Source: Bacteroidota bacterium
GTDB lineage: Bacteria > Bacteroidota > Bacteroidia > Palsa-965
Length of the DNA stretch: 64,000 nt
Direction: 5' to 3'
Assembly (NCBI GenBank): GCA_016194975.1
Contig: JACQAM010000019.1
Location: forward strand, 62,001-126,000
Of this stretch, positions 13,371 through 52,856 are shown piece by piece. Each line of letters opens with the position of its first letter. The first letter of the stretch is position 1. The translations under genes were made by a program, and so were the position numbers. The notes below the pieces were generated by a model, which saw only the letters and a program-made list of their open reading frames with translations, was not told the origin of the DNA and ran no database searches.

Positions 13371-13395
13371 GATGCGATACTGAAATTAGTGTGGA

Positions 13396-13403
13396 CAAAA
13401 GTA
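13396..13403 (-). promoter_or_regulatory. TAnnTTTG-type -7 promoter element for glyA
   Basis: On the minus strand this reads TACTTTTG (six of six fixed positions), 25 bases before the glyA start, in the short gap after the exosortase-unit gene. No -33 TTG box is evident. Confidence 0.45.
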
Positions 13404-13409
13404 AATAAA

Positions 13410-13871
13410 TCATTCACTTTTTCGGAGAACGAGGAAGGATGCAATTAAGATCACAAGTAAGGCCGGCGTTTCCGTTAGCCCGGCGAGAAAGCGCGCAATA
13501 TTGTAAGTAGAATCGATCATGCCTGTCAATGAACCGGCGAGGTAGAATAAAGAACCAAGAATGAAAATTATCCCGTAACTGATGAGTGTAATACGGATCT
13601 TTTCTCTTTCATTGAAAATAGTCTTCACCGTGATTGCTGCAAGGAGCGCAAAGACGATCGCAAATAAAACGGTGAGCAGCCACTTGGAATAATAAAGAGC
13701 AGCGTAACTCCATCCCGAAAGAAAATGCAGGGAAGGAGAAACGTGCGAATCGGCGTCATGATAATAAGTAACCCGGCTCTGCTCATTGATATTCACAAAA
13801 ATGAATTCACGAAGGAACCCGGTCACAATGTAGAGCAGGATAAGCAGGCCGCCGGCGATTTTTTTTCTCAT
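13410..13871 (-). CDS. Small membrane protein of the exosortase unit
   Basis: 153 residues with four hydrophobic segments (about 5-24, 58-80, 90-112 and 130-148). A soluble stretch after the first helix is rich in polar residues (NINEQSRVTYYHDADSHV). No enzymatic motif was seen. It overlaps the exosortase gene by four bases (ATGA), so the two are translationally coupled. Small Bacteroidota exosortase systems often carry such an associated membrane protein (XrtF- and XrtX-associated proteins are examples). Membership of either group is my inference from context and size, not from a motif. Confidence 0.65.
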   Translation of the reverse strand: MRKKIAGGLLILLYIVTGFLREFIFVNINEQSRVTYYHDADSHVSPSLHFLSGWSYAALYYSKWLLTVLFAIVFALLAAITVKTIFNEREKIRITLISYGIIFILGSLFYLAGSLTGMIDSTYNIARFLAGLTETPALLVILIASFLVLRKSE

Positions 13872-22153: not shown

Positions 22154-22969
22154 ATGATCAACCAGTTTTCTTTCCGTCCATCGGATGAAGAATTGAAACA
22201 GATAAGATCTGAACTTTACCGTTCGGATGCTCCCGGTTTTTTCATTTTCAGAAAATTCATCAATGAAAATTTCCTGAACCACATGCGTTCGTTCTGGATC
22301 CATGAAGCGCCCATTTCCAAATCGCATGTGAAACTTCAGGGCATTGACAAAAAGAAAATGTTCTGGCTCGGCAATCCCGATTATCTCTACGAAACACGTT
22401 TCGGAAGAGCGTACTACAATTATTTCTGGAATAAACCTGTTGATGAAGCTACTTACGCCGTTGCATTTGCCGTGCAGCAATTGAGAAGTCTCATCGAATC
22501 CAATAAAAATCATCTCGATTTTTATCCGCTTGACGGATACTGCTGCAGTTACCGCGTGGTCATCACTCGAAACGGGGAAAAAATAGTGGAACCGCATTCC
22601 GACTGGACAACGCCTCCGTATTTCAGGCCCGAACGTTTGCAGGCCACCGTTATTCTTTCAAAAAAAGGAACGGATTACAATGGGATCGGGATGAAAACAA
22701 TTTCCAATGATAAAAAAACAGAATATGTTTTCGATTCGGAAAATATGCCGCTCGAACCCGGTGATCTTGTCATCTGGAGATACAACAATGTACACTCCGT
22801 CGAAAATGTGAGGAGCAGCGAGGATCAAGTCGGTTTCCTGCGAATGATTTTTCCGCCCGAAACAATTCTTCCGCGATCAGAAGAAAGTGTGATGAGTGAG
22901 ATACGCGCTTCTGTACTTTTCAAACATCTGCGTAAAAGAATTCTCAAGCGATTTAAACTGAGCTCATGA
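22154..22969 (+). CDS. Fe(II)/2-oxoglutarate-type oxygenase-like protein
   Basis: 271 residues. It shows the H-x-D...H metal triad and a 2-oxoglutarate-binding Arg at the expected distances: His148 and Asp150 (VEPHSDW), His214 (NNVHSVEN) and Arg230 (GFLRMIF). A double-stranded beta-helix pattern lies between them (ATVILSKK, LEPGDLVIWRY). It therefore probably hydroxylates or oxidises a sugar or a lipid-linked intermediate. It follows the ABC ATPase by six bases and overlaps the next methyltransferase by four, so oxidation and methylation of the same residue or cap are plausible. The substrate is unknown. Confidence 0.75.
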   Translation: MINQFSFRPSDEELKQIRSELYRSDAPGFFIFRKFINENFLNHMRSFWIHEAPISKSHVKLQGIDKKKMFWLGNPDYLYETRFGRAYYNYFWNKPVDEATYAVAFAVQQLRSLIESNKNHLDFYPLDGYCCSYRVVITRNGEKIVEPHSDWTTPPYFRPERLQATVILSKKGTDYNGIGMKTISNDKKTEYVFDSENMPLEPGDLVIWRYNNVHSVENVRSSEDQVGFLRMIFPPETILPRSEESVMSEIRASVLFKHLRKRILKRFKLSS

Positions 22970-24585: not shown

Positions 24586-26082
24586 ATGTTATTCAACTCT
24601 TTCAATTTCCTTGTTTTTTTTCCTGTTGTAACCGGGCTTTATTTTCTTTTGCCGCATCGTTTCCGCTGGTTCATGCTGCTCGCCGCCAGTTGTTTTTTCT
24701 ACATGTTCTTCATCCCGGCGTATGTGCTCATTCTCATTTTTACCATCATCGTCGATTATTTTGCGGGGCTGCTCCTCGGGAAAGAAAAAAATGCACGCAG
24801 GAAAAAGTTGTGGCTCATCATGAGTCTCGTTGCCAACATAGGCGTTCTTGCTGTTTTCAAATATTACAATTTCTTCAATACCAATTTTGAAGAGCTCGCA
24901 CACCGGCTCGGATGGAATTATGGAATTCCAATGTTGAAAATGGTTCTGCCCATCGGGCTTTCCTTTCACACGTTCCAGGCGATGAGTTACACGATCGAAG
25001 TTTTCCGCGGGAACCAGAAAGCGGAAAAACATTTCGGGATCTATGCGCTCTACGTGATGTATTATCCGCAGCTCGTTGCCGGCCCCATCGAACGCCCGCA
25101 GAATATGTTGTGGCAATTCCGCGTTCCGCAAACATTCGATTACGTGCGCGTGACCGACGGATTGAAATTAATGGCGTGGGGGCTTTTCAAAAAAGTGGTG
25201 ATCGCCGATCGTTTATCTACACTCGCAAATCCTGTTTTCGACCACCCGCAGAATTACGAAGGGATCTCCATGCTGGTCGCCACGATCTTTTTCAGTTTCC
25301 AGATCTATTGTGATTTTTCCGGTTATTCCGACATCGCTCTTGGCGCATCGCAGGTGATGGGAATAAAACTGATGAAAAATTTTGATCGTCCGTATTTTTC
25401 AAAATCAATTTCGGAATTCTGGAAACGCTGGCACATTTCTCTTTCTTCCTGGTTCCGCGATTACCTCTACATTCCGCTTGGTGGAAACCAGAAAGGAAAA
25501 TTTTTCACGTACCGCAATCTCTTTCTCACTTTTCTCATCAGCGGATTCTGGCACGGTGCCAACTGGACCTTCATTATCTGGGGAGCATTGCACGGTTCGT
25601 ACCTCATCTTTGCAATTCTCACACAGGGGACAAGAAAAAAGATGCGCGATCTTCTTGGCATCACGAAAAGAAAATTACTCGACAAAATTCTGCAGGCGGC
25701 AATAGTTTTTTCTCTTGTAAGTTTTGCATGGATATTTTTCCGCGCCGATTCGCTGGCAAAAGCGTGGTACATGATCTCGCATATTGCTACCGGTGTTCCG
25801 AAATATATTTATCACTTTCTCACCAATCGTCATTTTCTGTGGCTCGAACCGATCACGCTCAAACGCGATCTTCATGCGATCTGGTTTGAATACGTGGTTA
25901 TTTTCATCGCCATTGCATTGATGGAAAGTGTGCACTGGTTGCAGCGGGGAAGAAGCGGCCGTGAATTACTCCGCACAAAACCAGTAACAGTGCGCTGGGG
26001 ATTTTACATCGGGCTTACGTGGCTCATTCTTCTCTTCGGTGTTTACCACAGTAAAAATGAATTCATCTATTTTCAATTCTGA
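24586..26082 (+). CDS. MBOAT family O-acyltransferase (AlgI/DltB-like)
   Basis: 498 residues with about ten membrane segments. Two landmark motifs are intact: FWKRWHISLSSWFRDYLYIP with His283, and SGFWHGANWTFIIWG with the invariant catalytic His323, close to AlgI His322. These proteins pass acyl groups, often acetyl, across the inner membrane to exported polysaccharides. They usually need an SGNH-type periplasmic partner, and the next gene, two bases on, encodes one. The donor could be acetyl-CoA or, given the acyl carrier protein gene 4 kb downstream, a carrier-bound acyl unit. Confidence 0.95.
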   Translation: MLFNSFNFLVFFPVVTGLYFLLPHRFRWFMLLAASCFFYMFFIPAYVLILIFTIIVDYFAGLLLGKEKNARRKKLWLIMSLVANIGVLAVFKYYNFFNTNFEELAHRLGWNYGIPMLKMVLPIGLSFHTFQAMSYTIEVFRGNQKAEKHFGIYALYVMYYPQLVAGPIERPQNMLWQFRVPQTFDYVRVTDGLKLMAWGLFKKVVIADRLSTLANPVFDHPQNYEGISMLVATIFFSFQIYCDFSGYSDIALGASQVMGIKLMKNFDRPYFSKSISEFWKRWHISLSSWFRDYLYIPLGGNQKGKFFTYRNLFLTFLISGFWHGANWTFIIWGALHGSYLIFAILTQGTRKKMRDLLGITKRKLLDKILQAAIVFSLVSFAWIFFRADSLAKAWYMISHIATGVPKYIYHFLTNRHFLWLEPITLKRDLHAIWFEYVVIFIAIALMESVHWLQRGRSGRELLRTKPVTVRWGFYIGLTWLILLFGVYHSKNEFIYFQF

Positions 26083-26084
26083 AC

Positions 26085-27044
26085 TTGAAACGTTTTTTAT
26101 ATAAATCGGTTTTGTTTGTTGTGCTTGTTTTTGCACCGCTCTATCCGCTTGCACATTTTTATGACCGGCAGATTCAGAAGGACACTGCAGAAAAAGGGAT
26201 TTGGGTGCTTTCACTGAAGAATAAAACTTTTGATTATGTACTCGTTGGTTCATCGCGGGTTTTCAATGTTGTTTCTCCTTTGGTGATGGACAGCGTGCTT
26301 GGAATGAAAGGTGTGAATCTTGGCGTTGGAGGAACAGGTTATGCAGAGAATTTTCTGCTGCTCGATCAGTTTTTCAAAAATGGCAACAAAGCAAAAATTA
26401 TATTGATACAGGTGGATATGTGGGGACTGCTTGCACCAGAAAAAGCGTATTCCCATCCTTTCAATGATCAGTGTTATCTTTTTCTCATTGGCAAAGGAAC
26501 TTCCGATTCTGTCATTGCTAAAAACACCAATCCGCTGAAACATGTCCTGAGAAAATATCTTCCGTTCTTTTCTTACGCGGAGTACAATAATATTTACCCG
26601 ATGAATTCCGTTTATGCAGGATTTCCGCACAAGCCCGCCGATTTTGAAAAAGAAGCCGGTGTTTATCTCCGTGACAACGATGGACAGCGCGATAAAGTTT
26701 TTACGGATTCATTGAAAGTGCAACATCGTGAATATTGCGCAGCTTCTGCAGAATCGCTCCAACAACTCATTGCTCTTGCCAGAAAACATAATTGCACGGT
26801 GGTGTTTTTTACATCGCCTACTTATTCAGTTTATCTTCCTTATGAACCCGATAATAAAGTGATGCACGATTCGCTCGATGCGATCGCGAACAGGAATTCC
26901 ATCCCGTATTTTGATTTTGAAAAAAGTTCTATTTGCGATGAGCGCAAGGATTTCCGCGATTTTACACATCTCAACAGGAAAGGATCAGGAATATTTTCGG
27001 CGCTCCTTGCTGATTCACTCCTGGACTGGATGACACAACGATGA
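26085..27044 (+). CDS. SGNH-hydrolase-like periplasmic partner of the MBOAT protein
   Basis: 319 residues from a TTG start at 26085, right after the MBOAT stop. The N-terminus (FLYKSVLFVVLVFAPLYPLA) is a signal anchor. VLVGSSRVFN is a block-I-like SGNH motif with the nucleophile Ser57 or Ser58. The C-terminal DFTHLNRKGSGIFS supplies the D-x-x-H pair. In alginate and cellulose acetylation systems such proteins (AlgJ/AlgX, WssI-like) transfer the acyl group to the sugar on the periplasmic side. The pair probably decorates the polysaccharide made by this locus. The TTG start is unusual but the only one before the signal anchor. Confidence 0.75.
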   Translation: MKRFLYKSVLFVVLVFAPLYPLAHFYDRQIQKDTAEKGIWVLSLKNKTFDYVLVGSSRVFNVVSPLVMDSVLGMKGVNLGVGGTGYAENFLLLDQFFKNGNKAKIILIQVDMWGLLAPEKAYSHPFNDQCYLFLIGKGTSDSVIAKNTNPLKHVLRKYLPFFSYAEYNNIYPMNSVYAGFPHKPADFEKEAGVYLRDNDGQRDKVFTDSLKVQHREYCAASAESLQQLIALARKHNCTVVFFTSPTYSVYLPYEPDNKVMHDSLDAIANRNSIPYFDFEKSSICDERKDFRDFTHLNRKGSGIFSALLADSLLDWMTQR

Positions 27045-27158: not shown

Positions 27159-28904
27159 ATGGATCTTATAGATTTCAACACACTTCGTAAAAATCTTAAA
27201 AAAGATTTTTCTTCATTGAAGAAACTTCGCGTCGCCATCCTCGGCGATTCTGCAACGCAGTTTCTTGCGCAGGCGGTGCGCGGGTACGGGTACGAACGTG
27301 CGTACGACCTTGAAATTTTTGAAGCGGATTACGACCAGGTGGATCTCCAGGTTTTTGACGAACGTTCCGCGATGTATAATTTTCATCCCGATTTCGTTAT
27401 TATTTTCTGCTCGGTGAGAAAACTGCTGAAAAATTTTTACAACACACCGAAAGATCATCGCAAAAATTTTGCAGAAAAAAAAGCAGAGTGGTTTTCTTCT
27501 ATTGGCGAAGCCATCAGTTCACGTACGCATGCGCGTATCATCTGCATGAATTTTCCGGCGCACGACGATTCTGTTTTCGGAAATTATGCGAATAAAGTCG
27601 AAAGTTCTTTCACCTGGCAGCTGCGTTCGCTGAACATGAACCTGATGAAATGGGCCGCGGACAAAAAAAACATCTTTATTGCTGATGTTGCTATGCTCCA
27701 GTCGCGTTTCGGAAATGAAATCATGTCCGATCCGAAAATGTATCTCAGCGCCGACATGATCTTCAGTCTCGATTTTATTCCGCATGTGGCGAAATCATTG
27801 GTGGATATTATTCTTTCCATCGACGGAACTTTTCACAAATGCCTTATCCTTGATCTCGACAACACCCTGTGGGGCGGAATCATTGGTGATGATGGAATTG
27901 AAAATATTCAGATCGGGGATCTTGGTGCCGGAAAAGCATTCACCGGGTTGCAGCTCTGGGCAAAGCAACTGAAGGAACGCGGAATTATTATCGCAGTCTG
28001 CAGCAAGAACGATGAGAAAATTGCAAAAGAACCATTCGAAAAACATCCGGACATGGTTTTGAGAATGGAAGACATCGCCGTGTTTGCCGCGAACTGGGAA
28101 AGCAAGATCGACAACATAAAATATATTCAATCGGTTCTGCAGGTCGGTTTCGACTCCATGGTTTTCATTGACGATAATCCGTTCGAAAGAAATATTATCC
28201 GCGAGCATCTTCCTGCGGTCACAGTTCCCGAATTGCCGGAAGATCCGGCTGAGTACCTCGATCATCTTCAGTCACTCAATCTTTTCGAAACGGCATCTGT
28301 TTCGGAAGAAGATGAGCAACGGACCAAACAGTATCAAAAGGAAGCGGAGCGAAATGTAGCACAACGCAGTTTTACCAGTGAAAAAGATTTTCTTGAAAGC
28401 CTTGAAATGGTTTCGGTAATAAAACATTTTGACAAGTTCAGCACGCCGCGTATTGCACAACTTTCTCAACGTTCGAACCAATTCAATCTCCGCACAGTTC
28501 GTTACACAGAATCAGAAATTGAAACGCTTTCTTCATCGAAAGAGCACATCCATCTCACTTTTACACTCGTTGATAAATTCGGTGACAATGGTTTGATCGC
28601 TGTTATCATTCTGAAAAAAATAAAACCGGATGCATGGTTCATCGATACCTGGCTTATGAGTTGCCGTGTGCTTCGCCGCGGAATGGAAAATTTTGCTTTG
28701 AACACCATCGTGAAACAGGTTCGGGATAAAGGAGGAAAAATTCTCATTGGTGAATATATTCCAACGGCTAAAAACATAATGGTGAAAGAACATTACAGGG
28801 ATCTCGGCTTCAAAGAAAGGAACGGTCAATGGCAACTTGATCTTGAAAAATATCCGGAGCGCCCATGTTTCATCAGGGCCGATTATCAGAACGGAAAGGA
28901 ATGA
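27159..28904 (+). CDS. FkbH-like HAD-IIIC protein
   Basis: 581 residues in three parts. An SGNH-like N-terminal region (about 20-215) begins with VAILGDSATQF. A HAD-type phosphatase core has LILDLDNTLWGG (Asp232 and Asp234 catalytic), a central CSKND, and MVFIDDNPFERN. The C-terminal part is GNAT-like (about 420-580). FkbH proteins load a glyceryl unit from 1,3-bisphosphoglycerate onto an acyl carrier protein. A carrier protein gene lies three positions downstream, which supports that role here. In surface polysaccharide loci this activity would supply a glyceryl- or related acyl group. Confidence 0.92.
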   Translation: MDLIDFNTLRKNLKKDFSSLKKLRVAILGDSATQFLAQAVRGYGYERAYDLEIFEADYDQVDLQVFDERSAMYNFHPDFVIIFCSVRKLLKNFYNTPKDHRKNFAEKKAEWFSSIGEAISSRTHARIICMNFPAHDDSVFGNYANKVESSFTWQLRSLNMNLMKWAADKKNIFIADVAMLQSRFGNEIMSDPKMYLSADMIFSLDFIPHVAKSLVDIILSIDGTFHKCLILDLDNTLWGGIIGDDGIENIQIGDLGAGKAFTGLQLWAKQLKERGIIIAVCSKNDEKIAKEPFEKHPDMVLRMEDIAVFAANWESKIDNIKYIQSVLQVGFDSMVFIDDNPFERNIIREHLPAVTVPELPEDPAEYLDHLQSLNLFETASVSEEDEQRTKQYQKEAERNVAQRSFTSEKDFLESLEMVSVIKHFDKFSTPRIAQLSQRSNQFNLRTVRYTESEIETLSSSKEHIHLTFTLVDKFGDNGLIAVIILKKIKPDAWFIDTWLMSCRVLRRGMENFALNTIVKQVRDKGGKILIGEYIPTAKNIMVKEHYRDLGFKERNGQWQLDLEKYPERPCFIRADYQNGKE

Positions 28905-29003
28905 TTTTTTTATCCGAATGAAGGATAAACGTTATCGCTTTTAGAAAACAGGAAAATCACTATCATTGTAACAACACATCGTCAAAGAAAAAAAACAGTT
29001 CAG

Positions 29004-29915
29004 ATGGAAGAATCATTTGTCGATTTTACGCTCAACCGCATTGCACAGCAAAACCCTCTTCATTTCAAGAAGGCCAGGAAAAATGTGAAGAAGATATGGG
29101 AGAATGAAGAAGCGCGCGTGAAAGCAAATGCATTTTACGATAAGTACGATTCATTTCTCAAACAGATCGGGAAAACGAGAGCGTATGCGGTCGACAGTTA
29201 TCTCAAAATGATCCACGATGTGATGAATGAATCGATCCATTTTGAAAAAACCGGAGAATACACCAGCAAATCATTTGATGAAGTGAACAAGCGTGTTTAT
29301 GCAAATCCCGACATCATGGATTATTACATGCACGGTTTGCTCATGTCACAGTTCATCTGGCTGCATCATTTCGAATTGCTCAAATTTTATGTCGATTCAC
29401 TTCCGCGGTACAAACCTTATGTGAAACATTATCTCGAAGTTGGTGGCGGGCACGGGTTGTATGTGAATGAAGCGGTTCGTTGTTTCACCAATTCTTTAGA
29501 CAATAATGTGATCGATATTTCGAAGATCTCATTGGAGATGGCGAAGAATTTTGTAGAATCTCCCTCGGTGAATTTCATTCTCTCGGATATTTTCAAATAT
29601 TTTCCTGAGAATAAATTCGATTTCATTACGATGGGCGAAGTGCTCGAACACGTGGAAGACCCGGTAGCGCTGCTGAAAAAATTACACGAACTTCTCGCTG
29701 ATAACGGAAGAGTTTTCGTGACCACCCCGACGAACGCACCGGCCATCGACCACATTTATCTTTTCCGGAATGCAGCTGAGATTCGCGATGTCATCGACAA
29801 AGCCGGGTTCGCCATCGAAGAGGAACTCTGTGTTTATGCCGAAGATGTTCCGGAAGAAATTGCAGAACAACTGAAGATCACGCTCATGTACGCCGCTTTT
29901 CTCAGGAAAAAATAA
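29004..29915 (+). CDS. SAM-dependent methyltransferase of the acyl-carrier cassette
   Basis: 303 residues. The N-terminal half (about 1-135) is helical and charged. The C-terminal half is a Rossmann methyltransferase with motif I YLEVGGGHGLYVN (about 146-158) and motif IV FDFITMGEVLEHVEDP. The unusual helical N-terminal half could bind a carrier protein. It lies between FkbH and the ACP gene, spaced 99 and 12 bases, so it probably methylates the ACP-bound unit (O-methylation as in methoxymalonyl-ACP routes is one model). The substrate is inferred from position only. Confidence 0.85.
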   Translation: MEESFVDFTLNRIAQQNPLHFKKARKNVKKIWENEEARVKANAFYDKYDSFLKQIGKTRAYAVDSYLKMIHDVMNESIHFEKTGEYTSKSFDEVNKRVYANPDIMDYYMHGLLMSQFIWLHHFELLKFYVDSLPRYKPYVKHYLEVGGGHGLYVNEAVRCFTNSLDNNVIDISKISLEMAKNFVESPSVNFILSDIFKYFPENKFDFITMGEVLEHVEDPVALLKKLHELLADNGRVFVTTPTNAPAIDHIYLFRNAAEIRDVIDKAGFAIEEELCVYAEDVPEEIAEQLKITLMYAAFLRKK

Positions 29916-29927
29916 TTCATTCGCTTT

Positions 29928-30173
29928 ATGGACAAAAAAGAAATTCTGAACCAGGTCAGCACAATTCTCAAAACAGTTTTTGATAATGATGCGCTCACCA
30001 TCACTGAAAAAACTTCTGCACTCGACATCGAGGAATGGGATTCGCTCACGCATATTCAGGTGGTGGTGTCGGCCGAAAAGCATTTCAAAATAAAATTCAC
30101 TTCCATGGAGATCATGGCATTCAAAACGGTGGGCGATATGTGCGATGCCGTTGAAAGAAAATTAATATCCTGA
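29928..30173 (+). CDS. Acyl carrier protein
   Basis: 81 residues. The four-helix carrier pattern carries the phosphopantetheine attachment Ser39 in EEWDSLTHI. The acidic helix II and the C-terminal MEIMAFKTVGDMCDAV fit the family. It is not the fatty-acid ACP type (no D-S-L-D-T-V core), and its neighbours are not fatty-acid genes. It overlaps the VOC gene by one base (TGATG). In this context it is the likely holder of an FkbH-loaded glyceryl-type group. Confidence 0.92.
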   Translation: MDKKEILNQVSTILKTVFDNDALTITEKTSALDIEEWDSLTHIQVVVSAEKHFKIKFTSMEIMAFKTVGDMCDAVERKLIS

Positions 30174-30562
30174 TGCTCGAATTCCACCACGTAGGCTGTA
30201 TTGTTGAAAGCATTGATGCGTCGGTTGCTTTGCATCTTGAGTCGAATGGAGGAAAAATTTCTGAAAAATTTCACATCACATCACAGAAGGTCACCGTTTG
30301 TTTCGCGGAACTTGCGCCTGGAATTCATATTGAATTTGTGCAGGCCGATGAAACAGGGTCAGTGATCGACGGTTTGAAAAAAAAACACACCACCTACTAT
30401 CATCTCGGTTACAAAGTTGCTGACTTCGACAAGGCGGTCGCACAATTGGAAAGTACAGATCATAAAGTGCTGAGCATTTTTTCTTCCGAAGCTTTCCTTG
30501 GAAAAAGATGCGCGTTCCTTTTTACTCCCGATATGCGGCTGATAGAGCTTATCGAGAAATGA
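30173..30562 (+). CDS. VOC-superfamily protein (glyoxalase / methylmalonyl-CoA epimerase-like)
   Basis: 129 residues made of two beta-alpha-beta-beta-beta modules: FHHVGCIVESIDASVAL at the start and YYHLGYKVADFDKAVAQLE in the second half. Metal ligands of the family are present in position (His6, Glu near IHIEFVQ, His78, Glu128-like). Related proteins epimerise or isomerise acyl thioesters. Its one-base coupling to the ACP gene makes an ACP-bound substrate likely, for example correcting the alpha-carbon of a glyceryl or lactyl unit. That proposal is inference. Confidence 0.8.
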   Translation: MLEFHHVGCIVESIDASVALHLESNGGKISEKFHITSQKVTVCFAELAPGIHIEFVQADETGSVIDGLKKKHTTYYHLGYKVADFDKAVAQLESTDHKVLSIFSSEAFLGKRCAFLFTPDMRLIELIEK

Positions 30563-30680: not shown

Positions 30681-31823
30681 ATGGAAAAACGTATCATCCA
30701 GATCTCTCAGCCGTCCATGGGACAGGAAGAATGGGAAGCCATGCGCGAACCGGTTTTCAGCGGATGGATCACGCAGGGGCCAAAAGTTGCTGAGTTCGAA
30801 AAATTATTTGCACAGCGTCACCAGGTAAAACATGCACTCGCGGTTTCCAATTGCACCACTGCATTACATCTTGCTTTACTCGCAGGAAAAGTAGGCCCCG
30901 GCGATGAAGTGATCATTCCCGCATTCACATGGGTCTCTACTGCCAATGCAGTGTTGTATTGTAACGCAACCCCTGTTTTCTGCGATGTGGATCCGGTAAC
31001 ATTCAACCTCGATGTTGCGGACATGAAAAAAAGGATAACATCAAAAACAAAAGCGATCATTCCCGTTCATCTTTTCGGTTTGTGCGCCGATGTGAATGCG
31101 GTGAAAAATGCAGCACCCGGAATTTTCATTGTAGAAGATGGCGCGTGTGCTTCGGGAGCCATGCTTCATGGAAGATCAGCCGGTGCGCTCGGTGACGTTG
31201 GATGTTTTTCTTTTCACCCGAGAAAATCAGTTACTACCGGCGAAGGAGGAATGCTCACAACAAATGATGATGCCATTGCCGAACACCTGAATCGTCTTCG
31301 AAATCATGGCGCATCTGTTTCCGAAGAACAGCGTCATAAAGGCCCGCGTCCGTATATTCTCCCTGAATTCGATATCGTCGGATATAATTATCGCATGACC
31401 GATGTGCAGGGCGCTCTCGGAATTGTGCAGATAAAAAAACTGGATCAGTTTATCGATGAAAGAAATAAATGGGCGAAATGGTATTCCGGAAAACTTTCTC
31501 CGCTCAAATGGTTACGCACGCCGGTTGTTGCCGATGGCTATCGTCACGGATGGCAATCTTTCGTCACATTCATCGATGAAAAAATTTCACCGATGAAGAG
31601 AAATGATATCATGGAAGCGTTGCAGCAAAAGGGGATCAGCACGCGCCCGGGTACGCATGCGGTACACATGCTCGGGTACTACGCGAAGAATTTTAATATC
31701 AAACCGGATGATTTTCCCGGCGCAAAAAGAGCGAATGATCTTTCCATGGCTATCCCGTTGCACAACAGAATGAGAGCTGAAGATTACGCTTACGTTGCAG
31801 ACGCTATTCTTTCACTCGGCTGA
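30681..31823 (+). CDS. DegT/DnrJ/EryC1/StrS-family sugar aminotransferase
   Basis: 380 residues, PLP-dependent. The Schiff-base lysine is Lys182 in CFSFHPRKSVTTGEGG; the preceding S-F-H-P is the diagnostic run. Asp153-region VEDGACASGA binds the pyridine nitrogen. It transaminates a keto-nucleotide sugar to an amino sugar, usually using glutamate. Which keto-sugar cannot be told, and no 4,6-dehydratase is adjacent. It is coupled by a one-base TGATG overlap to the acyltransferase gene, which could N- or O-acylate the product. It is the first gene after a 118-base spacer with a hairpin element. Confidence 0.95.
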   Translation: MEKRIIQISQPSMGQEEWEAMREPVFSGWITQGPKVAEFEKLFAQRHQVKHALAVSNCTTALHLALLAGKVGPGDEVIIPAFTWVSTANAVLYCNATPVFCDVDPVTFNLDVADMKKRITSKTKAIIPVHLFGLCADVNAVKNAAPGIFIVEDGACASGAMLHGRSAGALGDVGCFSFHPRKSVTTGEGGMLTTNDDAIAEHLNRLRNHGASVSEEQRHKGPRPYILPEFDIVGYNYRMTDVQGALGIVQIKKLDQFIDERNKWAKWYSGKLSPLKWLRTPVVADGYRHGWQSFVTFIDEKISPMKRNDIMEALQQKGISTRPGTHAVHMLGYYAKNFNIKPDDFPGAKRANDLSMAIPLHNRMRAEDYAYVADAILSLG

Positions 31824-32863
31824 TGCAGAACAGGAACTACGGACTGGATATTGTGAGGGCCATTTCCATCTGGCTTGTTTTGCTGCAGCATACAGGAGTA
31901 AGCCCGGGCGGACTCAAGATAGGCGCACTCGGCGTAGAAGTTTTTTTTGTGCTGAGCGGATTTCTCATCGGGCAAATACTTTTGCGCGAGGTTCGGAAAG
32001 AAAATAGTTTTCATACGCTGAAAAAATTCTGGATCCGGCGATGGTTTCGTATTCTTCCCGTTTATTATCTGGTGCTATTCACGAAATTATTTTTCTTCGG
32101 GCCATTCATCGGTTTGAAAATACTCTACTATGTGTTTTTCCTGCAGAATAATTTTTACGGTATCGATTTTTATAATGTGACGTGGAGTTTGGTTGTGGAA
32201 GAATGGTTTTACATTTTTGCGCCGCTTTTTCTCATGATCGCATTTTATTTCTCGGGACACAATCCTGTTCGGCTGCTTTTATGGCTGGTTGTTTTTCTTA
32301 TTGCAGAAAATATTTTCCGGCTGGGGTACGTTCTCCGTCGCGATACGCCGTTCGGTGGAGTGAATGGGAATTTTCCATTCCGTTTCGATTCACTTTTCTG
32401 CGGAGTGTTCATTGCTTTTCTGCGCCAGGAAGTGCAGCACGTGTACGCGCGAATGCGATCCGTGTTTTATTTCATCGCAGGAATTTTATTCATCGCTGCT
32501 TATGTTTTTTATATTCATTCCATTATTGCGCCAACTGATATGAGGGACCATCTTATTTTTCCACGCACTATCGGATTTTTTATTTTCAGTATTTCCATCG
32601 CGATCACGATCCCTTTCATCGAGCAATTGAAATTTCCGTCGGATAATATTGCTGCAAAAATCCCATTTCATTTTTTTACCCAAACCAGCCTTCTTACTTA
32701 CAGCATTTATCTTATTCACCCGTTGGTGTTTCCTTATTTCATTTCAAAAACGAGTTCCACATTTCACGCAGCTCTTGCGATCGTGGTCGTTTACGCCTGC
32801 GCGTTCGTGATCTATTATTCATTCGAAAAACCGGTGTTGAAATTGCGGGAACGCTTCGCCTGA
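31823..32863 (+). CDS. Acyltransferase 3 family membrane protein (OafA/YrhL-like)
   Basis: 346 residues with about ten membrane helices. The family hallmarks are the N-terminal YGLDIVRAISIWLVLLQHTG, with the conserved Arg and His, and the F-F-V-L-S-G-F-L-I-G segment, followed by RRWFRILPVYYL. It moves acetyl or other acyl groups onto sugars at the membrane. It shares a TGATG junction with the aminotransferase. The C-terminus ends with a short basic stretch and has no extra SGNH domain, unlike OafA proper. Confidence 0.93.
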   Translation: MQNRNYGLDIVRAISIWLVLLQHTGVSPGGLKIGALGVEVFFVLSGFLIGQILLREVRKENSFHTLKKFWIRRWFRILPVYYLVLFTKLFFFGPFIGLKILYYVFFLQNNFYGIDFYNVTWSLVVEEWFYIFAPLFLMIAFYFSGHNPVRLLLWLVVFLIAENIFRLGYVLRRDTPFGGVNGNFPFRFDSLFCGVFIAFLRQEVQHVYARMRSVFYFIAGILFIAAYVFYIHSIIAPTDMRDHLIFPRTIGFFIFSISIAITIPFIEQLKFPSDNIAAKIPFHFFTQTSLLTYSIYLIHPLVFPYFISKTSSTFHAALAIVVVYACAFVIYYSFEKPVLKLRERFA

Positions 32864-32958: not shown

Positions 32959-34848
32959 ATGTGCGGAATCACAGCAATATTCAATCTTAACGGTGAACCG
33001 GCCTCGCAGGAGATCGTAAATAAAATGACGCGGGCTATTGCTCACCGTGGGCCCGACAATGAAGGATTTTTTCTGCACGATAATTTTGCAATGGGACATC
33101 GCCGCTTATCGATCCTCGATGTTTCTGAGAAGGGGGCACAACCCATGCATTCGCAAAATGGAGAATGGGTGATCGGTTTCAATGGTTGCATTTACAATTA
33201 CAAAGAGATCCGGAATGAGTTGTTCGCACTCGGGCATCAGTTCAGATCGGAATCGGACACCGAAGTCATCAGCGAAGGCCTTGCAGAATGGGGCGAAGAA
33301 GTTTTCAGGAAATTCAACGGCATGTTTGCTGTTGTAGCATGGAATAAAAAAACCAAAACACTTTTTCTAAGCCGCGACCGTTTCGGAATAAAACCGCTGT
33401 ACTATTGGTTTAACGGGAAGACTATTCTTGTTGCTTCCGAAATAAAATCTTTTCTTGCTCATCCGGGTTTCAGTGTTCAACTCAATCATCACGCGCTGAA
33501 CGAATATTTCACATTTCAGAATCTTTTTACATTCCGCACTTTGTTCGATGGTGTAGTGATGCTTCCTCCTGCGAATACCGTGCGCATCAGTGGCGATGAA
33601 ACTTCATTCATCAAACATAATTCGTGGTGGGATTATGATTTTTCCAATCCGGATGAAAAAATTTCTTTTGAAGATGCAACAGAAGAAACAAAACGCCTGA
33701 TGAAAATTGCAGTGGAACGCCAGATGATTTCCGATGTTCCGGTTGGAAGTTATTTGTCAGGAGGAATGGATTCCGCTTCCATTACGGCGATTGCAAGCAA
33801 GCACGTTCCGCGAATGACAACTTTCACTGCAGGATTCGATATGTCTGAAGTTACCGGCGTGGAAGCAAATTATGATGAACGCCGCGATGCAGAACTTACT
33901 GCGAATTTTTACAAGACAGAACATTACGAGCAGGTGATCAATGCCGGCGATCTTGCGTGGTCGCTTCCGCGTGTGGTGTGGCATCTCGAAGACCTGCGCG
34001 TTGGAATGAGTTATCCGAATTATTACATCAGCCGCCTCGCGTCAAAATTTGTGAAAGTCTGTTTGCAGGGAACCGGTGGCGACGAATTGTATGGTGGTTA
34101 TCCGTGGAGATATTACCGTGTTTCAAAATCGCTCGACCAGTCTTCTTTTTTTTCAAATTATTATTCCTACTGGCAACGGCTCGTTTCCGACGAATCAAAA
34201 TCAGAACTTTTTCATGCGGGCGTGGTTTCAAAAATGGATTTGAATGAACCACGGCAGATCTTTGAACGTGTTTTCACTTTCAATAAAAAACTCCGCTATT
34301 CACGCCCGGAAGAACATATTGCCAACAGTCTTTATTTCGAAATAAAAACTTTTCTTCCCGGATTGCTTCTTGTCGGTGACAAACTTTCGATGGCGAACGG
34401 GCTCGAAGAACGATTTCCGTTTCTCGATAATGATCTCGTGGAATTTGCACAGCGTGTTCCGGTGAAACACAAACTCGGGAATTTCGAGCAGATGAAACGC
34501 GTCGATGAAAATGTAACGCATAAAAATGCCTACACGGAATTCAACGATGGAAAAAATGTGCTGCGCAAAGCGATGCTTGAATTTCTTCCGGAATCGGTCA
34601 TCAACAGGAAGAAACAGGGATTTTCCGCTCCCGATGAATCGTGGTACAGGGGAGAGAACGCGCGCTATGTGCAGGAATTGCTGCTCGATAAAAAAGCGAG
34701 ATACGCCGAATTCATCGATCCTAAATTTGTTGCGAAGATCGTGGATGAACACCTCCATAAAAAAATGAATCACCGCCTCCTCATCTGGTCGCTGATGAAT
34801 TTCGAATGGTGGTGCAGGATATTTATCCATAATGAAAAATTTCAATGA
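32959..34848 (+). CDS. asnB: Glutamine-hydrolysing asparagine synthetase family amidotransferase
   Basis: 629 residues. Cys2 at the start of MCGITAIF is the glutaminase nucleophile (class II amidotransferase). The N-terminal domain runs to about 210. The synthetase domain carries the ATP pyrophosphatase P-loop SGGMDS (267-272). Both domains are intact, so the enzyme probably makes an amide from glutamine nitrogen. In polysaccharide loci AsnB homologues amidate uronic acids or other carboxylated sugars, rather than making asparagine, and its position here favours that. It overlaps the FemAB-like gene by four bases. Confidence 0.93.
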   Translation: MCGITAIFNLNGEPASQEIVNKMTRAIAHRGPDNEGFFLHDNFAMGHRRLSILDVSEKGAQPMHSQNGEWVIGFNGCIYNYKEIRNELFALGHQFRSESDTEVISEGLAEWGEEVFRKFNGMFAVVAWNKKTKTLFLSRDRFGIKPLYYWFNGKTILVASEIKSFLAHPGFSVQLNHHALNEYFTFQNLFTFRTLFDGVVMLPPANTVRISGDETSFIKHNSWWDYDFSNPDEKISFEDATEETKRLMKIAVERQMISDVPVGSYLSGGMDSASITAIASKHVPRMTTFTAGFDMSEVTGVEANYDERRDAELTANFYKTEHYEQVINAGDLAWSLPRVVWHLEDLRVGMSYPNYYISRLASKFVKVCLQGTGGDELYGGYPWRYYRVSKSLDQSSFFSNYYSYWQRLVSDESKSELFHAGVVSKMDLNEPRQIFERVFTFNKKLRYSRPEEHIANSLYFEIKTFLPGLLLVGDKLSMANGLEERFPFLDNDLVEFAQRVPVKHKLGNFEQMKRVDENVTHKNAYTEFNDGKNVLRKAMLEFLPESVINRKKQGFSAPDESWYRGENARYVQELLLDKKARYAEFIDPKFVAKIVDEHLHKKMNHRLLIWSLMNFEWWCRIFIHNEKFQ

Positions 34849-35918
34849 ACGGGAATGGAGCTTTGAAACCAGAAGAAGCGGAACAACTGAATTCTTTTTT
34901 ACTCGGTTCAGGAAATAATTTACTTTATTCTTCTCCGTGTTATTTGTCCTTGTTGCAAAATTATCTTTCCCCTGTGCGAATGGAAGTGTTGCGTCATTTC
35001 TCCAATGGGAAACTCGCCGGTTATTTTCCGTTTGTCATTCGCCTCAATGAAAAATACGGCAATGTCTGCAACAGTCTTCCTTATTACGGAAGTAACGGTG
35101 GCATCATCACGCATTCTCAATTGAGTGTAGAAGAAAAAAATGAAGTCCGCGCTTCTCTTCTTTCATTGGCAGAAAAAAAAATGAAAGAATATGATTGCGT
35201 CTCTTCCACGATCATTACCAATCCGCTCGATGCAGATACCGGAAACTGGATCCGCGATCATTTCAAACACGATCTCGTGGATGAACGCATTGGCCAGTTG
35301 ACTCCGTTGCCATTGAAAGGCGATGAAGCAGAAGAACGACTCTTGAAATTATTCGAAGATCCCCGCCCGCGCAACATCAGGCGCGCGCAAAAAGAAAATA
35401 TCACCGTTCGTTTCTCCAATGATCCTGCCGATCTTGATTTTCTTTTTGAAGTGCATCAGCAGAATATCACCGCGATCGGCGGTATCGCAAAAGAAAAACG
35501 TTTCTTCGACCTTATTCCATCACATTTTTCAGAAAAAGATTTCAGGATCTATGTCGCCGAACTCAACGGGGAAAAAATTGCCGCATTGTTACTTTTTTAT
35601 TTCAACGAAACGGTGGAATATTTCACTCCCGCAGTTGTTGAAGCATTCCGGCAATTACAACCTTCCGCTTTACTTATTTACAGGGCGATGCTGGATGCAA
35701 TGAATGAAAACTTTCATTGGTGGAATTGGGGCGGAACCTGGCTTTCACAGGGAGGTGTTTACGATTTTAAAAAGAAATGGGGAACAAAAGACCATCCGTA
35801 TTTTTATTACACCCGTATTTCCGATGAGAATATTCTGAAACATTCCAAAGAAGAATTGATCCGCGAATATCCGTTCTTTTTCGTGGCGCCGTTCGGTCAA
35901 CTGAAACCTGTTGTGTAA
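34845..35918 (+). CDS. FemAB/GNAT-like transferase
   Basis: 357 residues. Two tandem GNAT-like halves of the FemAB kind: LAGYFPFVIR and YYGSNGGIIT in the first, NIRRAQKENITVRF and GEKIAALLLFYFNETVEYFTPAV in the second, and the closing FKKKWGTK. Relatives attach amino acids to peptidoglycan or modify surface glycans using aminoacyl-tRNA or acyl-CoA. The donor here is unknown. The ATGA overlap with asnB suggests related steps on one sugar, such as amide or amino-acyl decoration. Close relatives of BioF2-like GNAT proteins occur in O-antigen clusters. Confidence 0.8.
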   Translation: MNGNGALKPEEAEQLNSFLLGSGNNLLYSSPCYLSLLQNYLSPVRMEVLRHFSNGKLAGYFPFVIRLNEKYGNVCNSLPYYGSNGGIITHSQLSVEEKNEVRASLLSLAEKKMKEYDCVSSTIITNPLDADTGNWIRDHFKHDLVDERIGQLTPLPLKGDEAEERLLKLFEDPRPRNIRRAQKENITVRFSNDPADLDFLFEVHQQNITAIGGIAKEKRFFDLIPSHFSEKDFRIYVAELNGEKIAALLLFYFNETVEYFTPAVVEAFRQLQPSALLIYRAMLDAMNENFHWWNWGGTWLSQGGVYDFKKKWGTKDHPYFYYTRISDENILKHSKEELIREYPFFFVAPFGQLKPVV

Positions 35919-35929
35919 CTTTAAGCATT

Positions 35930-36592
35930 ATGTCTTCCCTGCAGAATAAAACAAAAAAAGCGGTCATCTTCGGAACATCCGGCCAAGCCGAAGTGATGGA
36001 CCATCTCATCATGAACGATAGCGGCTACGATGTGGTTGCTTTTACTTCCACCGACGATTTTATCAAAACAAATTCGATCTACGGCCGTCCGCTTGTTGCA
36101 TTCGAAGATATCGAAAAAAAATATTCTCCTTCAGAATTTGAAATGCATATTGCTATCGGCTACAACACGCAGAATAAAACACGGGAAAGATTTTATCACG
36201 AAGCAAAAGCAAAAGGATACAAACTGCTGACGTACATAAGTTCAAAATGCACGAACTATGCGCGCAGCATCGGTGACAACTGTTTTATTTTCGAGGACAA
36301 TACCATTCAGCCATTCGTGGAGATCGGCAACAACTGCATTCTCTGGAGCGGAAATCACATTGGCCATCATTCGGTGGTGGAGGAAAATGTTTTTATTTCT
36401 TCTCACGTTGTCATTTCCGGCCATTGCCGCATTGGCCATCATTCTTTTCTCGGCGTGAATTCCACTTTGCGCGATGGAATAAAGATCGCGCCATTCACAA
36501 CACTCGGCGCCGGTTGCCTGATCGTGAAAGACACGGAAGAAGGACAAACCTACATTGGCACAAAAGCTTCACTCTATATTAAAAAAGACTGA
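35930..36592 (+). CDS. NeuD/PglD-like sugar O/N-acetyltransferase
   Basis: 220 residues. A Rossmann-like N-terminal domain (KKAVIFGTSGQAEVM, about 7-21) binds the nucleotide sugar. A left-handed beta-helix of hexapeptide repeats follows (about 105-215: NCILWSGNHIGHHSVVEENVF and so on), with the active-site histidines in IGHHS. NeuD-type enzymes acetylate sialic acids or amino nucleotide sugars with acetyl-CoA. Its presence fits the nonulosonate module further downstream, but it could equally acetylate the amino sugar made by the neighbouring aminotransferases. Confidence 0.92.
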   Translation: MSSLQNKTKKAVIFGTSGQAEVMDHLIMNDSGYDVVAFTSTDDFIKTNSIYGRPLVAFEDIEKKYSPSEFEMHIAIGYNTQNKTRERFYHEAKAKGYKLLTYISSKCTNYARSIGDNCFIFEDNTIQPFVEIGNNCILWSGNHIGHHSVVEENVFISSHVVISGHCRIGHHSFLGVNSTLRDGIKIAPFTTLGAGCLIVKDTEEGQTYIGTKASLYIKKD

Positions 36593-36593
36593 A

Positions 36594-37205
36594 ATGGATC
36601 TTTCGAAAATTGAAAAATTATATTCCGGCAATATCGAAAAGTTCGGCATCGATTCGCGCAGTGTAGGATGGAAAGATGCCGGATCGCAATCGTTGAGATT
36701 TCAGAAACTGATGAACGTGGTCAGTGAAAAAAATGTTCCGTTCACGATCAATGAACTCGGTTGCGGTTATGGCGAACTTTACAAATTCCTTCTCGCAGAA
36801 AATTTCAGCGTAAATAAATTCTCCGGATACGACATCAGCGATGAAATGCTGAAGAGTGCGCGCAATTATCTTGGTGAAGATGAAAAAGTGAAACTGATCA
36901 AAGGGCCGCAATTAGAGCAGGAAGCAGATTACAGCACCACTTCCGGAATTTTCAATGTCATGTTTGACGCACGGAAAGAAGACTGGGAAGATTACATCAA
37001 AGAAACATTGCTCAACATGAATCGGTTTTCGACGAAAGGATTTTCTTTCAACCTGCTTACAAGTTATGTCGATTTCAAAGCAGCCGATCTTTATTACGCC
37101 GATCCGGCGATCTTTTTTGATTTCTGTAAACGTGAATGTTCGAAACAGGTTGCTTTGTTGCACGATTATCCGCTCTATGAATGGACCATCATTGTCAGAA
37201 AATAA
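36594..37205 (+). CDS. SAM-dependent methyltransferase
   Basis: 203 residues from ATG 36594, one base after the upstream stop; a longer frame starting within the acetyltransferase gene is out of step with that gene and was not used. SAM motif I is INELGCGYGELY (about 52-63), followed by the acidic FSGYDIS and a motif IV region near FNVMFDARKEDW. The fold is a small Rossmann methyltransferase. The substrate is unknown. It ends one base before the propeller-protein gene. Confidence 0.85.
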   Translation: MDLSKIEKLYSGNIEKFGIDSRSVGWKDAGSQSLRFQKLMNVVSEKNVPFTINELGCGYGELYKFLLAENFSVNKFSGYDISDEMLKSARNYLGEDEKVKLIKGPQLEQEADYSTTSGIFNVMFDARKEDWEDYIKETLLNMNRFSTKGFSFNLLTSYVDFKAADLYYADPAIFFDFCKRECSKQVALLHDYPLYEWTIIVRK

Positions 37206-37206
37206 A

Positions 37207-38127
37207 ATGCAGCGCTGGAAAAAGTACGGACTCATTTTTAAACCCGATGGAATTTCTTCCTGGCAGAAGTCGCATGCCGCATTGCCAACTGCACTTCATC
37301 TTCATGACGATGTATTCAGAATTTATTTTACAAGCAGAGATGAAAACAACAGAACGTACTCCGGTTGGTTTGAAATAAATATTTTACAACCGGAAAAAAT
37401 TCTCCGCAGAAGTTCATATCCTGTTCTTTCTCCTGGACCACTCGGATTTTTCGACGATCACGGTGTTCAAACGTGCAGTCTCGTAAAAGAAGGAGGCCGG
37501 ATATGGCTTTATTATCTCGGCTGGAGTCCGGGTTTGACACAGCCGGTTTTTTATACTTCCATCGGTCTTGCTTATAGTGATGACGGCGGATTGAATTTTA
37601 AAAAATATTCACAAGCGCCAATTTTGGAGCGAAGTGAATTCGATCCATGGATGGTTTCGGGTTGCAGCGTGCTGAAAGAAAGTGACCGATGGAGAATGTG
37701 GTACATTTCCGGACAGAAATTTGAACTTACAGAAAAAGGAGCAAGATCATTCTACGATATTAAATACGCAGAGTCAGAAGATGGCATTCACTGGAAACGC
37801 GAAGGGATAATTTCTATTCCGCTTTTAAAAGGAGAAACAAATATTTCAAGAATTTCTATTCTGAAAACTTCAAACGGTTATCGGTGCTGGTATCCTTACA
37901 AGCGTGAAGAGCGTGGTTATAGAATTGGTTACGCAGAATCAAAAGACGGAATAAAATGGGAACGAAAAGATGAATTGGCAGGTATCGATGTTTCTGCTGA
38001 CGGATGGGATTCGGAGGCGCTCGACAAGCAGGAAGTATTCGCACACAAAAATAAATTGTACATGCTGTACAACGGAAATCGTTTCGGATTCGATGGAATA
38101 GGAATGGCTGTTCTGGAAAAGGAATAA
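37207..38127 (+). CDS. Five-bladed beta-propeller, glycoside hydrolase-like protein
   Basis: 306 residues from ATG 37207, one base after the preceding stop. It shows four to five repeated blades ending in aromatic-rich words: YFTSRDENNRTYSG, LAYSDDGGLNFKK, KYAESEDGIHWKR, GYAESKDGIKWER. This is the pattern of the GH32/43/68-like propeller clan. Acidic residues at FFDDHG and EFDPWM could be catalytic. No signal peptide is present, so it acts in the cytosol or on intermediates. Relatives in capsule loci are of unknown role; glycosyl transfer or trimming are possible. Confidence 0.7.
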   Translation: MQRWKKYGLIFKPDGISSWQKSHAALPTALHLHDDVFRIYFTSRDENNRTYSGWFEINILQPEKILRRSSYPVLSPGPLGFFDDHGVQTCSLVKEGGRIWLYYLGWSPGLTQPVFYTSIGLAYSDDGGLNFKKYSQAPILERSEFDPWMVSGCSVLKESDRWRMWYISGQKFELTEKGARSFYDIKYAESEDGIHWKREGIISIPLLKGETNISRISILKTSNGYRCWYPYKREERGYRIGYAESKDGIKWERKDELAGIDVSADGWDSEALDKQEVFAHKNKLYMLYNGNRFGFDGIGMAVLEKE

Positions 38128-39701: not shown

Positions 39702-40757
39702 ATGCAAGAACGTTTCATCAGCGATCTGAACCAGTTGGAAAAAGGCGCACGCATCGCTTTGTATGGCGCCGGCGCAGTGGGAAAATATTTCCTGGATCAG
39801 TCTGAAAAAACAAAACATGTGAAAGTGGTTTGTTTCATTGACGATCAGAAAAAAGGAGAACGGTTTGGTTTGCCGGTTATCGACCCATCACAACTTGATT
39901 CTTTTCAACCCGATCTTGTTCTCATTACTACTTCTTATTGGCGGGAAGTGAGATTGAAACTCCAGGAAGTAAAATGGAATTCGTTCGCTATCGGAGATCC
40001 TTTTTTTGAAGAAGAGAAAACAGAAATAACAATTTGCCCTGCGCGGGGAACGGAGTTGAAATTTCACACACCGTCACGCGTGCTTCGGTTCATTGCCGAT
40101 GCATTTGAAACGATCGAACCTAAAACGCTCGATTGGATCGATTCTTTTTCCGCCGGAGAAACGATGTACGATATCGGCGCCTCCAATGGAATGTTCGCCG
40201 TTTATGCTGCGGTGAAAAAAAATTGCTGTGTAGTTGCATTCGAACCCGATGCACAGAATTTTTCCGTACTTGAAATGAATCACTTTCTCAATAATAAAAA
40301 AATCAGCACGCCCATCATTTCTTTGAACGTTGCTGCTTCCGATAAATATGATCTCGGTTCATTTCACGCAGTGAATTACGGAGCCGGCCATCACAATAAA
40401 ACGCTGGAAAAAAATTCTGATCTGCATACTGCTTATGCGCACACGCAAATGGTGCTTACCGCTTCGCTCGATAAACTCATTACTGATTTTAATTTGCCTG
40501 AACCTGATCATGTGAAGATCGATGTAGATGGAGCGGAGTGGAATGTGATGCAGGGAGCTGCAGGAAGACTTGCATCGGGAAAAGTGAGATCGTGGTTGAT
40601 CGAATTACGGGAGGGCACACAGGAGGCGGAAAATATTTTCAACCTGATGCAAAAAAATAATTACGAGATGAAGGAACGACAGAAAATTGCGGAGATCATT
40701 GGTCCGCCTGTAGAAGGAGTTTACAATTTTCTATTTCTGAAAAAAGATGAGCACTGA
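39702..40757 (+). CDS. FkbM-family methyltransferase with N-terminal nucleotide-binding domain
   Basis: 351 residues. Residues 1-105 form a small Rossmann domain (RIALYGAGAVGKYFLDQ) like those of sugar-modifying fusion proteins. Residues 120-345 are an FkbM O-methyltransferase: motif I YDIGASNGMFAVYAA, CVVAFEPDAQNF, and the late VKIDVDGAEWNVMQG. It probably O-methylates a hydroxyl of a nucleotide sugar or glycan. It overlaps the next gene by 11 bases, in another frame, which ties their expression. Confidence 0.92.
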   Translation: MQERFISDLNQLEKGARIALYGAGAVGKYFLDQSEKTKHVKVVCFIDDQKKGERFGLPVIDPSQLDSFQPDLVLITTSYWREVRLKLQEVKWNSFAIGDPFFEEEKTEITICPARGTELKFHTPSRVLRFIADAFETIEPKTLDWIDSFSAGETMYDIGASNGMFAVYAAVKKNCCVVAFEPDAQNFSVLEMNHFLNNKKISTPIISLNVAASDKYDLGSFHAVNYGAGHHNKTLEKNSDLHTAYAHTQMVLTASLDKLITDFNLPEPDHVKIDVDGAEWNVMQGAAGRLASGKVRSWLIELREGTQEAENIFNLMQKNNYEMKERQKIAEIIGPPVEGVYNFLFLKKDEH

Positions 40758-41904: not shown

Positions 41905-42510
41905 ATGGATTTGAAAACTCTTCTGATGGATCCGGCAATTGCCAGCGATCCCGAAAAGGTCGCGTTGCTGCAGAATATTGTGGGACTGCAAAATGCCATG
42001 CGAGATATTACGCTCACTCGCTTCGATCGCGCCAATCCTTTCATTGAAGATATCACCGACTGGAAAGAGCGGGGCGAACGTCTTTTCGGAAAAGGAAAAA
42101 ATATTACGGTTTACAATTCATGCACAGTAGTTGGTAAAGTGGAAGTGGGTGAGAATACATGGATCGGCCCGTACACCGCGCTTGATGGAACCGCCGGATT
42201 GAAGATCGGGAAAGGATGTTCCATTTCTTCAGGTGTAAATATTGTTTCGCACGATTCGGTGAAGTGGGCGCTTAGTGGAGGAAAAAATCCGTATGAATAT
42301 GGACCCATCGAGATCGGCGATTTTTGTTTTATAGGAACAGGAGCGTTCATTACAAGAGGTGTGAAGATCGGAAAGCATTGCCTCGTGGGAGCAGGAGCGG
42401 TGGTCACAAAAGATATTCCTGATTTTTCGATTGCGCTGGGTGTGCCTGCGATCGTCAGGGGAAAAGTGGTGGTGAACGGAGAAAATGTGGAATTAATTTT
42501 TCATTCCTGA
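41905..42510 (+). CDS. Left-handed beta-helix acetyltransferase (WbbJ/LacA-like)
   Basis: 201 residues. The N-terminal 70 residues are helical. Then hexapeptide repeats form a left-handed beta-helix (TWIGPYTALDG, LKIGKGCSISSGVNIVSHDS, IEIGDFCFIGTGAFITRG, LVGAGAVVTKDIPDFSIALG). The catalytic His of the family is His113 in IVSHDSV. It transfers acetyl, or another acyl group, to a hydroxyl or amine of a sugar with acetyl-CoA. Four bases separate it from the following membrane protein. Confidence 0.92.
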   Translation: MDLKTLLMDPAIASDPEKVALLQNIVGLQNAMRDITLTRFDRANPFIEDITDWKERGERLFGKGKNITVYNSCTVVGKVEVGENTWIGPYTALDGTAGLKIGKGCSISSGVNIVSHDSVKWALSGGKNPYEYGPIEIGDFCFIGTGAFITRGVKIGKHCLVGAGAVVTKDIPDFSIALGVPAIVRGKVVVNGENVELIFHS

Positions 42511-50670: not shown

Positions 50671-50682
50671 AATTCTTTCCGG

Positions 50683-52014: not shown

Positions 52015-52015
52015 C

Positions 52016-52840: not shown

Positions 52841-52856
52841 ATTTTAAATCTGAGCA

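Follow-up and report, generated by a model that had tools for sequence, protein, structure and literature searches.

A candidate FkbH-loaded acyl-donor module in a Bacteroidota polysaccharide locus points to a carrier-protein branch of MBOAT-SGNH acylation

In the Dlt system, which D-alanylates teichoic acids, the membrane-bound O-acyltransferase (MBOAT) DltB binds the carrier protein DltC with its helix HC, by way of Met302, Val305, Ile306 and Met309 (PMC11035591). MBOAT-SGNH systems other than Dlt are stated to lack a carrier protein, and the acyl-shuttle motif FXYXXF has been described for PatA and DltX (PMC12148441). In the routes proposed for suomilide and varlaxin, FkbH loads glycerate, which is then methylated on the carrier (PMC13122637, PMC10143770), and the flagellin of Campylobacter jejuni bears di-O-methylglyceroyl pseudaminic acid, i.e., a methylated glyceric acid on a surface sugar (PMC3958885). 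Here we describe four adjacent genes in a polysaccharide locus of a Bacteroidota bacterium (assembly GCA_016194975.1, contig JACQAM010000019.1, positions 62,001 to 126,000; this stretch of 64,000 nucleotides is referred to as the window, and coordinates are counted from its first letter). The genes encode an FkbH-type loader, an S-adenosylmethionine-dependent methyltransferase, an acyl carrier protein (ACP) and a VOC metalloprotein. Together they probably constitute a carrier-protein acyl-donor module for the decoration of a surface polysaccharide, in which loading, methylation and a VOC step would precede transfer by an acyltransferase of the locus.

The original prediction, which was made from this DNA alone, had proposed these four genes as a cassette, and all four open reading frames were found where it placed them, on the + strand of a long co-directional polysaccharide region and with domains that could be assigned. 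The methyltransferase gene starts 99 bp after FkbH and the ACP gene 12 bp after the methyltransferase gene, and ACP and VOC overlap by 1 bp. The FkbH protein (27159..28904; 581 aa) is composed of an FkbH_N domain, a HAD-IIIC domain with the motif D232-x-D234 and a C-terminal acyltransferase part, and its scores against FkbH_N (PF21211, 243.5 bits, cut-off 27) and TIGR01686 (300.6 bits, cut-off 146.65) place it in the family. Residues D232, D234, C228 and C502 are invariant in 84 sequences. Residues 1-384 align with PDB 3SLR, the solved structure of the uncharacterised protein BF1531 of Bacteroides fragilis, for which the cassettes discussed here may offer a context. The methyltransferase (29004..29915; 303 aa) matches Methyltransf_23 over residues 129-246 (E 2e-18); its N-terminal half is conserved across 13 homologues, and homologues that are 41-55% identical are nearly confined to FkbH cassettes among the fetched loci. 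The ACP (29928..30173; 81 aa; PF00550, 30.7 bits, cut-off 20.8) has its phosphopantetheine site at W37-D-S39-L, within WDSLTH, and both Ser39 and Trp37 are invariant in 80 cassette ACPs. The VOC protein (30173..30562; 129 aa) belongs to the glyoxalase/methylmalonyl-CoA epimerase superfamily (Glyoxalase_4, PF13669, 53.6 bits), and its profile matches 3HDP and human MMCE 3RMU, which are epimerases. Residues H6, Q38, E54, H77 and E125 are invariant in 24 cassette VOCs, and the metal site (His, Gln/Glu, His, Glu) is complete with H6, E54, H77 and E125, which we take to be the metal ligands.

Conservation of the gene group was assessed in 80 FkbH relatives with their loci, nearly all from Bacteroidota. 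Near FkbH and on the same strand, an ACP is encoded in 78 of the 80 loci, an MBOAT in 70 and an SGNH protein in 64; after collapsing by genus or record to 48 units, the counts are 47, 42 and 37. The predicted loading pair of FkbH and ACP is thus supported by domains, invariant residues and synteny. In 72 of 75 loci the ACP gene is found no more than 2.5 kb downstream of FkbH. The same interval (0-2.5 kb) holds an MBOAT gene in 56 of 75 loci, versus 4 of 134 distant bins, and the methyltransferase and VOC genes are nearly restricted to it and co-occur within FkbH loci (Fisher p 1e-5). The position of the ACP, the confinement of the methyltransferase and VOC genes and their co-occurrence argue that the grouping is not due to chance. 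Three recurrent orders were FkbH-ACP-MaoC-SDR-MBOAT-SGNH (12 loci), FkbH-ACP-MBOAT-SGNH (10 loci) and FkbH-methyltransferase-ACP-VOC-MBOAT-SGNH (7 loci). Switches of the tailoring type (methyltransferase, VOC or MaoC plus SDR) are numerous on the FkbH tree, and the cassettes therefore resemble interchangeable modules. In locus L016, the exact order of the window, MBOAT-SGNH-FkbH-methyltransferase-ACP-VOC, forms an isolated co-directional block between genes on the opposite strand.

The MBOATs of these loci differ from others at one site. Of 39 ACP-adjacent MBOATs, 38 lack the motif PLGG, whereas 34 of 35 MBOATs without FkbH have it (p 9e-19, although the sequences in the compared sets are related, and p-values therefore overstate their independence). 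Where ACP-adjacent MBOATs read, for example, WLTEYVFTPLSIxF-RDYG, MBOATs without FkbH read WFRDYLYIPLGGS/N, and in an alignment with DltB this site coincides with helix HC, which docks DltC. The gene of the sole non-PLGG protein among the 35, in L004, lies directly next to an FkbH-ACP-VOC cassette and is transcribed away from it. In the reverse test, an MBOAT was used to search 395 genomes of the phylum; among the 30 loci returned, an ACP was present only in the two with a non-PLGG MBOAT, and the 28 PLGG loci all lacked one. We infer from this split that PLGG marks use of acyl-CoA by an MBOAT. The C-terminal FXYXXF motif is found in 76 of 80 MBOATs near FkbH, and the residues corresponding to S57 and H295 of the window's SGNH protein are conserved in 70 SGNH proteins from FkbH loci.

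By analogy with Dlt, the usual recipient of the Bacteroidota module would be a DltB-like MBOAT with its SGNH partner, with FkbH substituting for DltA and the ACP for DltC. Quite probably, a widespread second carrier-protein branch of MBOAT-SGNH acylation exists in Bacteroidota, in which an FkbH-loaded ACP, interchangeable tailoring enzymes (methyltransferase, VOC, MaoC-SDR) and a DltB-like docking MBOAT would export a glyceryl-derived unit to surface glycans. The window would then hold the methyltransferase-VOC version, with the acyl group diverted to the window's own PLGG-type MBOAT or to a different acyltransferase. The idea that a carrier-bound acyl group is the donor for polysaccharide decoration is well supported, the module being tied to MBOAT-SGNH pairs across Bacteroidota. 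This family-level pattern of FkbH, ACP, MBOAT and SGNH is the result of greater interest. The loci point to a large set of MBOAT-SGNH systems that use a carrier, and with the motif that separates ACP-linked from other MBOATs it may become possible to predict the acyl donor from sequence. Besides its known place in antibiotic assembly lines, FkbH likely has a role in surface glycans in Bacteroidota, among them Prevotella and other gut genera. No description of an FkbH-fed MBOAT-SGNH system, or of FkbH together with O-antigen, Bacteroides or polysaccharide, was found in the literature searched, which leaves most subscription literature outside.

What chemistry might the four proteins carry out? 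Gene content, conserved residues, synteny and the motif split among MBOATs can be read directly from sequence; the chemical steps that follow, with their substrate and recipient, are predictions. FkbH is predicted to load glyceryl from 1,3-bisphosphoglycerate onto the Ser39-linked phosphopantetheine arm of the ACP, and the methyltransferase is predicted to methylate the ACP-bound unit, most likely to an O-methylglyceryl thioester. VOC is predicted to act at the alpha carbon (C2), where it would most likely change the configuration, and an acyltransferase of the locus would then move the acyl group from the ACP to a sugar. O-methylglyceryl-ACP is the likeliest product because methylation of FkbH-loaded glycerate is what the suomilide/varlaxin route proposes, and that proposed precedent also makes methylation of the glyceryl unit plausible. 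The earlier suggestion that the methyltransferase and VOC tailor a carrier-bound unit is supported. In about 34-36 of the 80 cassettes (e.g., L003:11968-13079), a MaoC-like hydratase and an SDR replace VOC, which by analogy suggests conversion of glyceryl to a lactyl-type unit; a glyceryl-to-lactyl conversion has reportedly been proposed for bryostatin, and the MaoC-SDR cassettes would fit the same scheme. VOC need not act on a methylated substrate, since it occurs without the methyltransferase (10 loci) and replaces the MaoC-SDR pair. Two further arrangements of VOC were observed. In L073 (4756-6627), a VOC domain is followed in the same frame by an apparent adenylating (AMP-binding) enzyme, assigned by eye, and the gene adjoins FkbH and ACP genes. 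In L131 (from genome G193; FkbH at 7726 to VOC at 9405), a glycosyltransferase cluster that has no MBOAT contains a distant FkbH (42 bits) with a VOC, a hexapeptide protein and an ACP; the pairing of VOC with FkbH may predate the link to MBOATs.

It is possible, if rather unlikely, that VOC is not an epimerase and instead catalyzes loss of water at C3, giving a pyruvyl-type unit, or another reaction at the alpha carbon, and that the methyltransferase acts on carbon, such that the product would not be O-methylglyceryl. VOC and the SDR from the MaoC-SDR pair are mutually exclusive (both occur in 1 of 80 loci, p 1e-5), as alternative routes would, and the loci with VOC and no methyltransferase are in keeping with this idea. 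However, VOC superfamily members with the same metal site include epimerases as well as glyoxalases, and carrier-bound O-methylglycerate has its proposed precedent, whereas none was found for C-methylation of such a unit. Far less probable is that the module is a relic of, or serves, a small-molecule pathway unrelated to polysaccharide and lies in this locus by chance. FkbH is best known from polyketide and nonribosomal peptide synthetase (NRPS) clusters (PMC8949500), and it is present in only 3 of 12 genomes of the window's own family, each with a different cassette. Against such an origin, the reading frames are intact, the active-site residues are conserved and the association with MBOAT-SGNH recurs in most of the 48 units. 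Nor did a genome-wide search find a modular polyketide synthase (PKS): the single full-length ketosynthase match is a FabF-like 431-aa frame beside another ACP, and the other two matches are fragments in frames of ~400 aa, which agrees with the original remark that no PKS is present. The genome has one FkbH_N gene, such that this is its only FkbH module, three PP-binding matches and a single ACPS-type activating enzyme, which is encoded elsewhere.

Which protein receives the acyl group in the window is a separate question, on which the motif split bears most. The sugar acyltransferases that had been noted just upstream are present: an MBOAT (24586..26082, +; PF03062, 110.7 bits; DltB match, E 8e-31) followed by its SGNH partner (26085..27044, +; weak Lipase_GDSL_2), which carries G55-S-S57-R and D292-x-x-H295. 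The MBOAT has His323 and the C-terminal acyl-shuttle motif FIYFQF (Tyr495), and with the adjacent SGNH gene the pair qualifies as an MBOAT-SGNH acylation system. The implied hand-off to this MBOAT is nevertheless doubtful because the protein carries PLGGN (at 297), a motif shared with MBOATs that have no neighbouring ACP, which places it outside the carrier-fed class as defined here by a non-PLGG docking helix; by the cut-off of the curated DltB model it is not a DltB either (162.8 bits, cut-off 375). The MBOAT of L016, in contrast, is of the docking type. The other two MBOATs of the genome are also PLGG proteins and no docking-type MBOAT was found in the genome, and therefore the more likely recipient is another acyltransferase of the locus, of the hexapeptide, GNAT or AT3 type. 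A further PLGG-type MBOAT gene is encoded by the opposite strand ~16 kb past the end of the window, on the same contig (G000:C19:142134-142856).

Where an FkbH locus has no docking-type MBOAT, the ACP often has another acyltransferase as its neighbour: hexapeptide proteins in L130 and L131, ketoacyl-synthase-III-like proteins in L068 and L079, an AT3 gene following FkbH-ACP in L032, and the case of L033, where the ACP is fused to a hexapeptide-repeat acyltransferase domain (12839-13720), combining the carrier and its probable recipient in one protein. The candidates in the window are an acyltransferase-3 (AT3) membrane protein (31823..32863, +; PF01757, 61 bits), a GNAT/FemAB-like protein (34845-35918), a NeuD/PglD/VioB-type hexapeptide N-acyltransferase (35930..36592, +; TIGR03570, 162.5 bits, cut-off 160.8) and a hexapeptide acyltransferase (41905..42510, +; PF00132). 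The last is 31% identical to the ACP-fused domain of L033 and 36% to the ACP-adjacent protein of L131, values to be set against the wide resemblance of hexapeptide repeats to one another. The AT3 protein is weakly similar (25%) to that of L032, and the FemAB-like protein has no similarity to the protein after the ACP in L017. Trp65 is missing from the window ACP and from the ACPs of L074, L096 and L097, which adjoin hexapeptide proteins, and is present in all 66 ACPs of other loci. The other non-MBOAT loci keep Trp65, and its absence in the window is only a hint of a non-MBOAT recipient.

With a lower but substantial likelihood, the module may feed the upstream MBOAT-SGNH pair after all (24586-27044), in a full Dlt-like relay in which the acyl group would pass from the ACP to Tyr495 of the MBOAT and then be moved by the SGNH protein to polysaccharide outside the membrane. 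The pair is co-directional with FkbH and ends 114 bp upstream of it, the six-gene order is identical in L016, FIYFQF and His323 are in place, and the MBOAT groups with several ACP-adjacent MBOATs in a clade of mixed type. However, the five members of the supported subclade to which it belongs are all PLGG or PMGG, the motif is typical of MBOATs without an ACP, and L028, L035, L041 and L046 have a PLGG MBOAT upstream of FkbH with a separate docking-type MBOAT downstream. Several points weigh against transfer to another acyltransferase, or against the module as we propose it. In the window the ACP is not adjoined by any alternative acyltransferase, the nearest, AT3, lying 1.3 kb past VOC, and the PLGG argument may fail for the window MBOAT because that protein occupies the position of the docking-type MBOAT in L016. 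The FkbH loci were picked by similarity to the window's FkbH, and the methyltransferase has no match to the PF01596 O-methyltransferase family. VOC scores 39.3 bits against TIGR03081 (cut-off 114.95), and membership of the methylmalonyl-CoA epimerase family proper was rejected.

Directly downstream of the module is a DegT-family sugar aminotransferase (30681..31823, +; PF01041, 370.5 bits), which could make an amino group open to N-acylation. A CTP-transferase, a class III aminotransferase and a NeuB-type synthase of the same locus (49909-53912) indicate a nonulosonic-acid (sialic-acid-like) pathway. The proteins encoded at 42514-44112 (532 aa), 40747-41850 (367 aa) and 22154-22969 (271 aa) have no convincing Pfam match. 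The reading frames at 36555-37205 and 37066-38127 overlap by 140 bp, and the second probably starts later than its first ATG.

The methoxymalonyl-ACP pathway, FkbG-FkbK of FK520, resembles the window in that FkbH loads a discrete ACP and a methyltransferase is present. The window methyltransferase is from another family, however, and this pathway was rejected since no FkbI- or FkbK-type dehydrogenase gene is among the window neighbours scanned and there is no PKS. The FkbH-methyltransferase-peptidyl carrier protein module of suomilide/varlaxin is likewise proposed to load glycerate by way of FkbH and to methylate it while carrier-bound, but there the domains are fused in an NRPS and the product is a peptide and not a polysaccharide substituent. 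Pseudaminic acid of C. jejuni is an example of a bacterial surface sugar that bears a methylated glyceric acid, although in another phylum and with no FkbH route described in the review (PMC3958885). PatA/PatB and AlgI/AlgJ/AlgX, which the window pair resembles, combine an MBOAT with a C-terminal FXYXXF motif and a separate SGNH protein; in the Bacteroidota cassettes this arrangement is extended by a carrier protein, a loader and tailoring enzymes. The differences from Dlt (DltA-DltB-DltC-DltD, DltX) are that FkbH replaces DltA, no DltA-type adenylating ligase being found among the scanned window neighbours, that the group carried is predicted to be of the glyceryl type instead of D-alanyl, that the shuttle motif is on the MBOAT itself, that the hosts are Gram-negative and that the window MBOAT is without the docking signature. 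The likeness lies in a carrier loaded in the cytosol, an MBOAT, an SGNH protein and an FXYXXF acyl-Tyr shuttle; FkbH-ACP-MBOAT-SGNH mirrors DltA-DltC-DltB-DltD, and it is precisely the carrier-docking helix that sets the cassette MBOATs apart from others.

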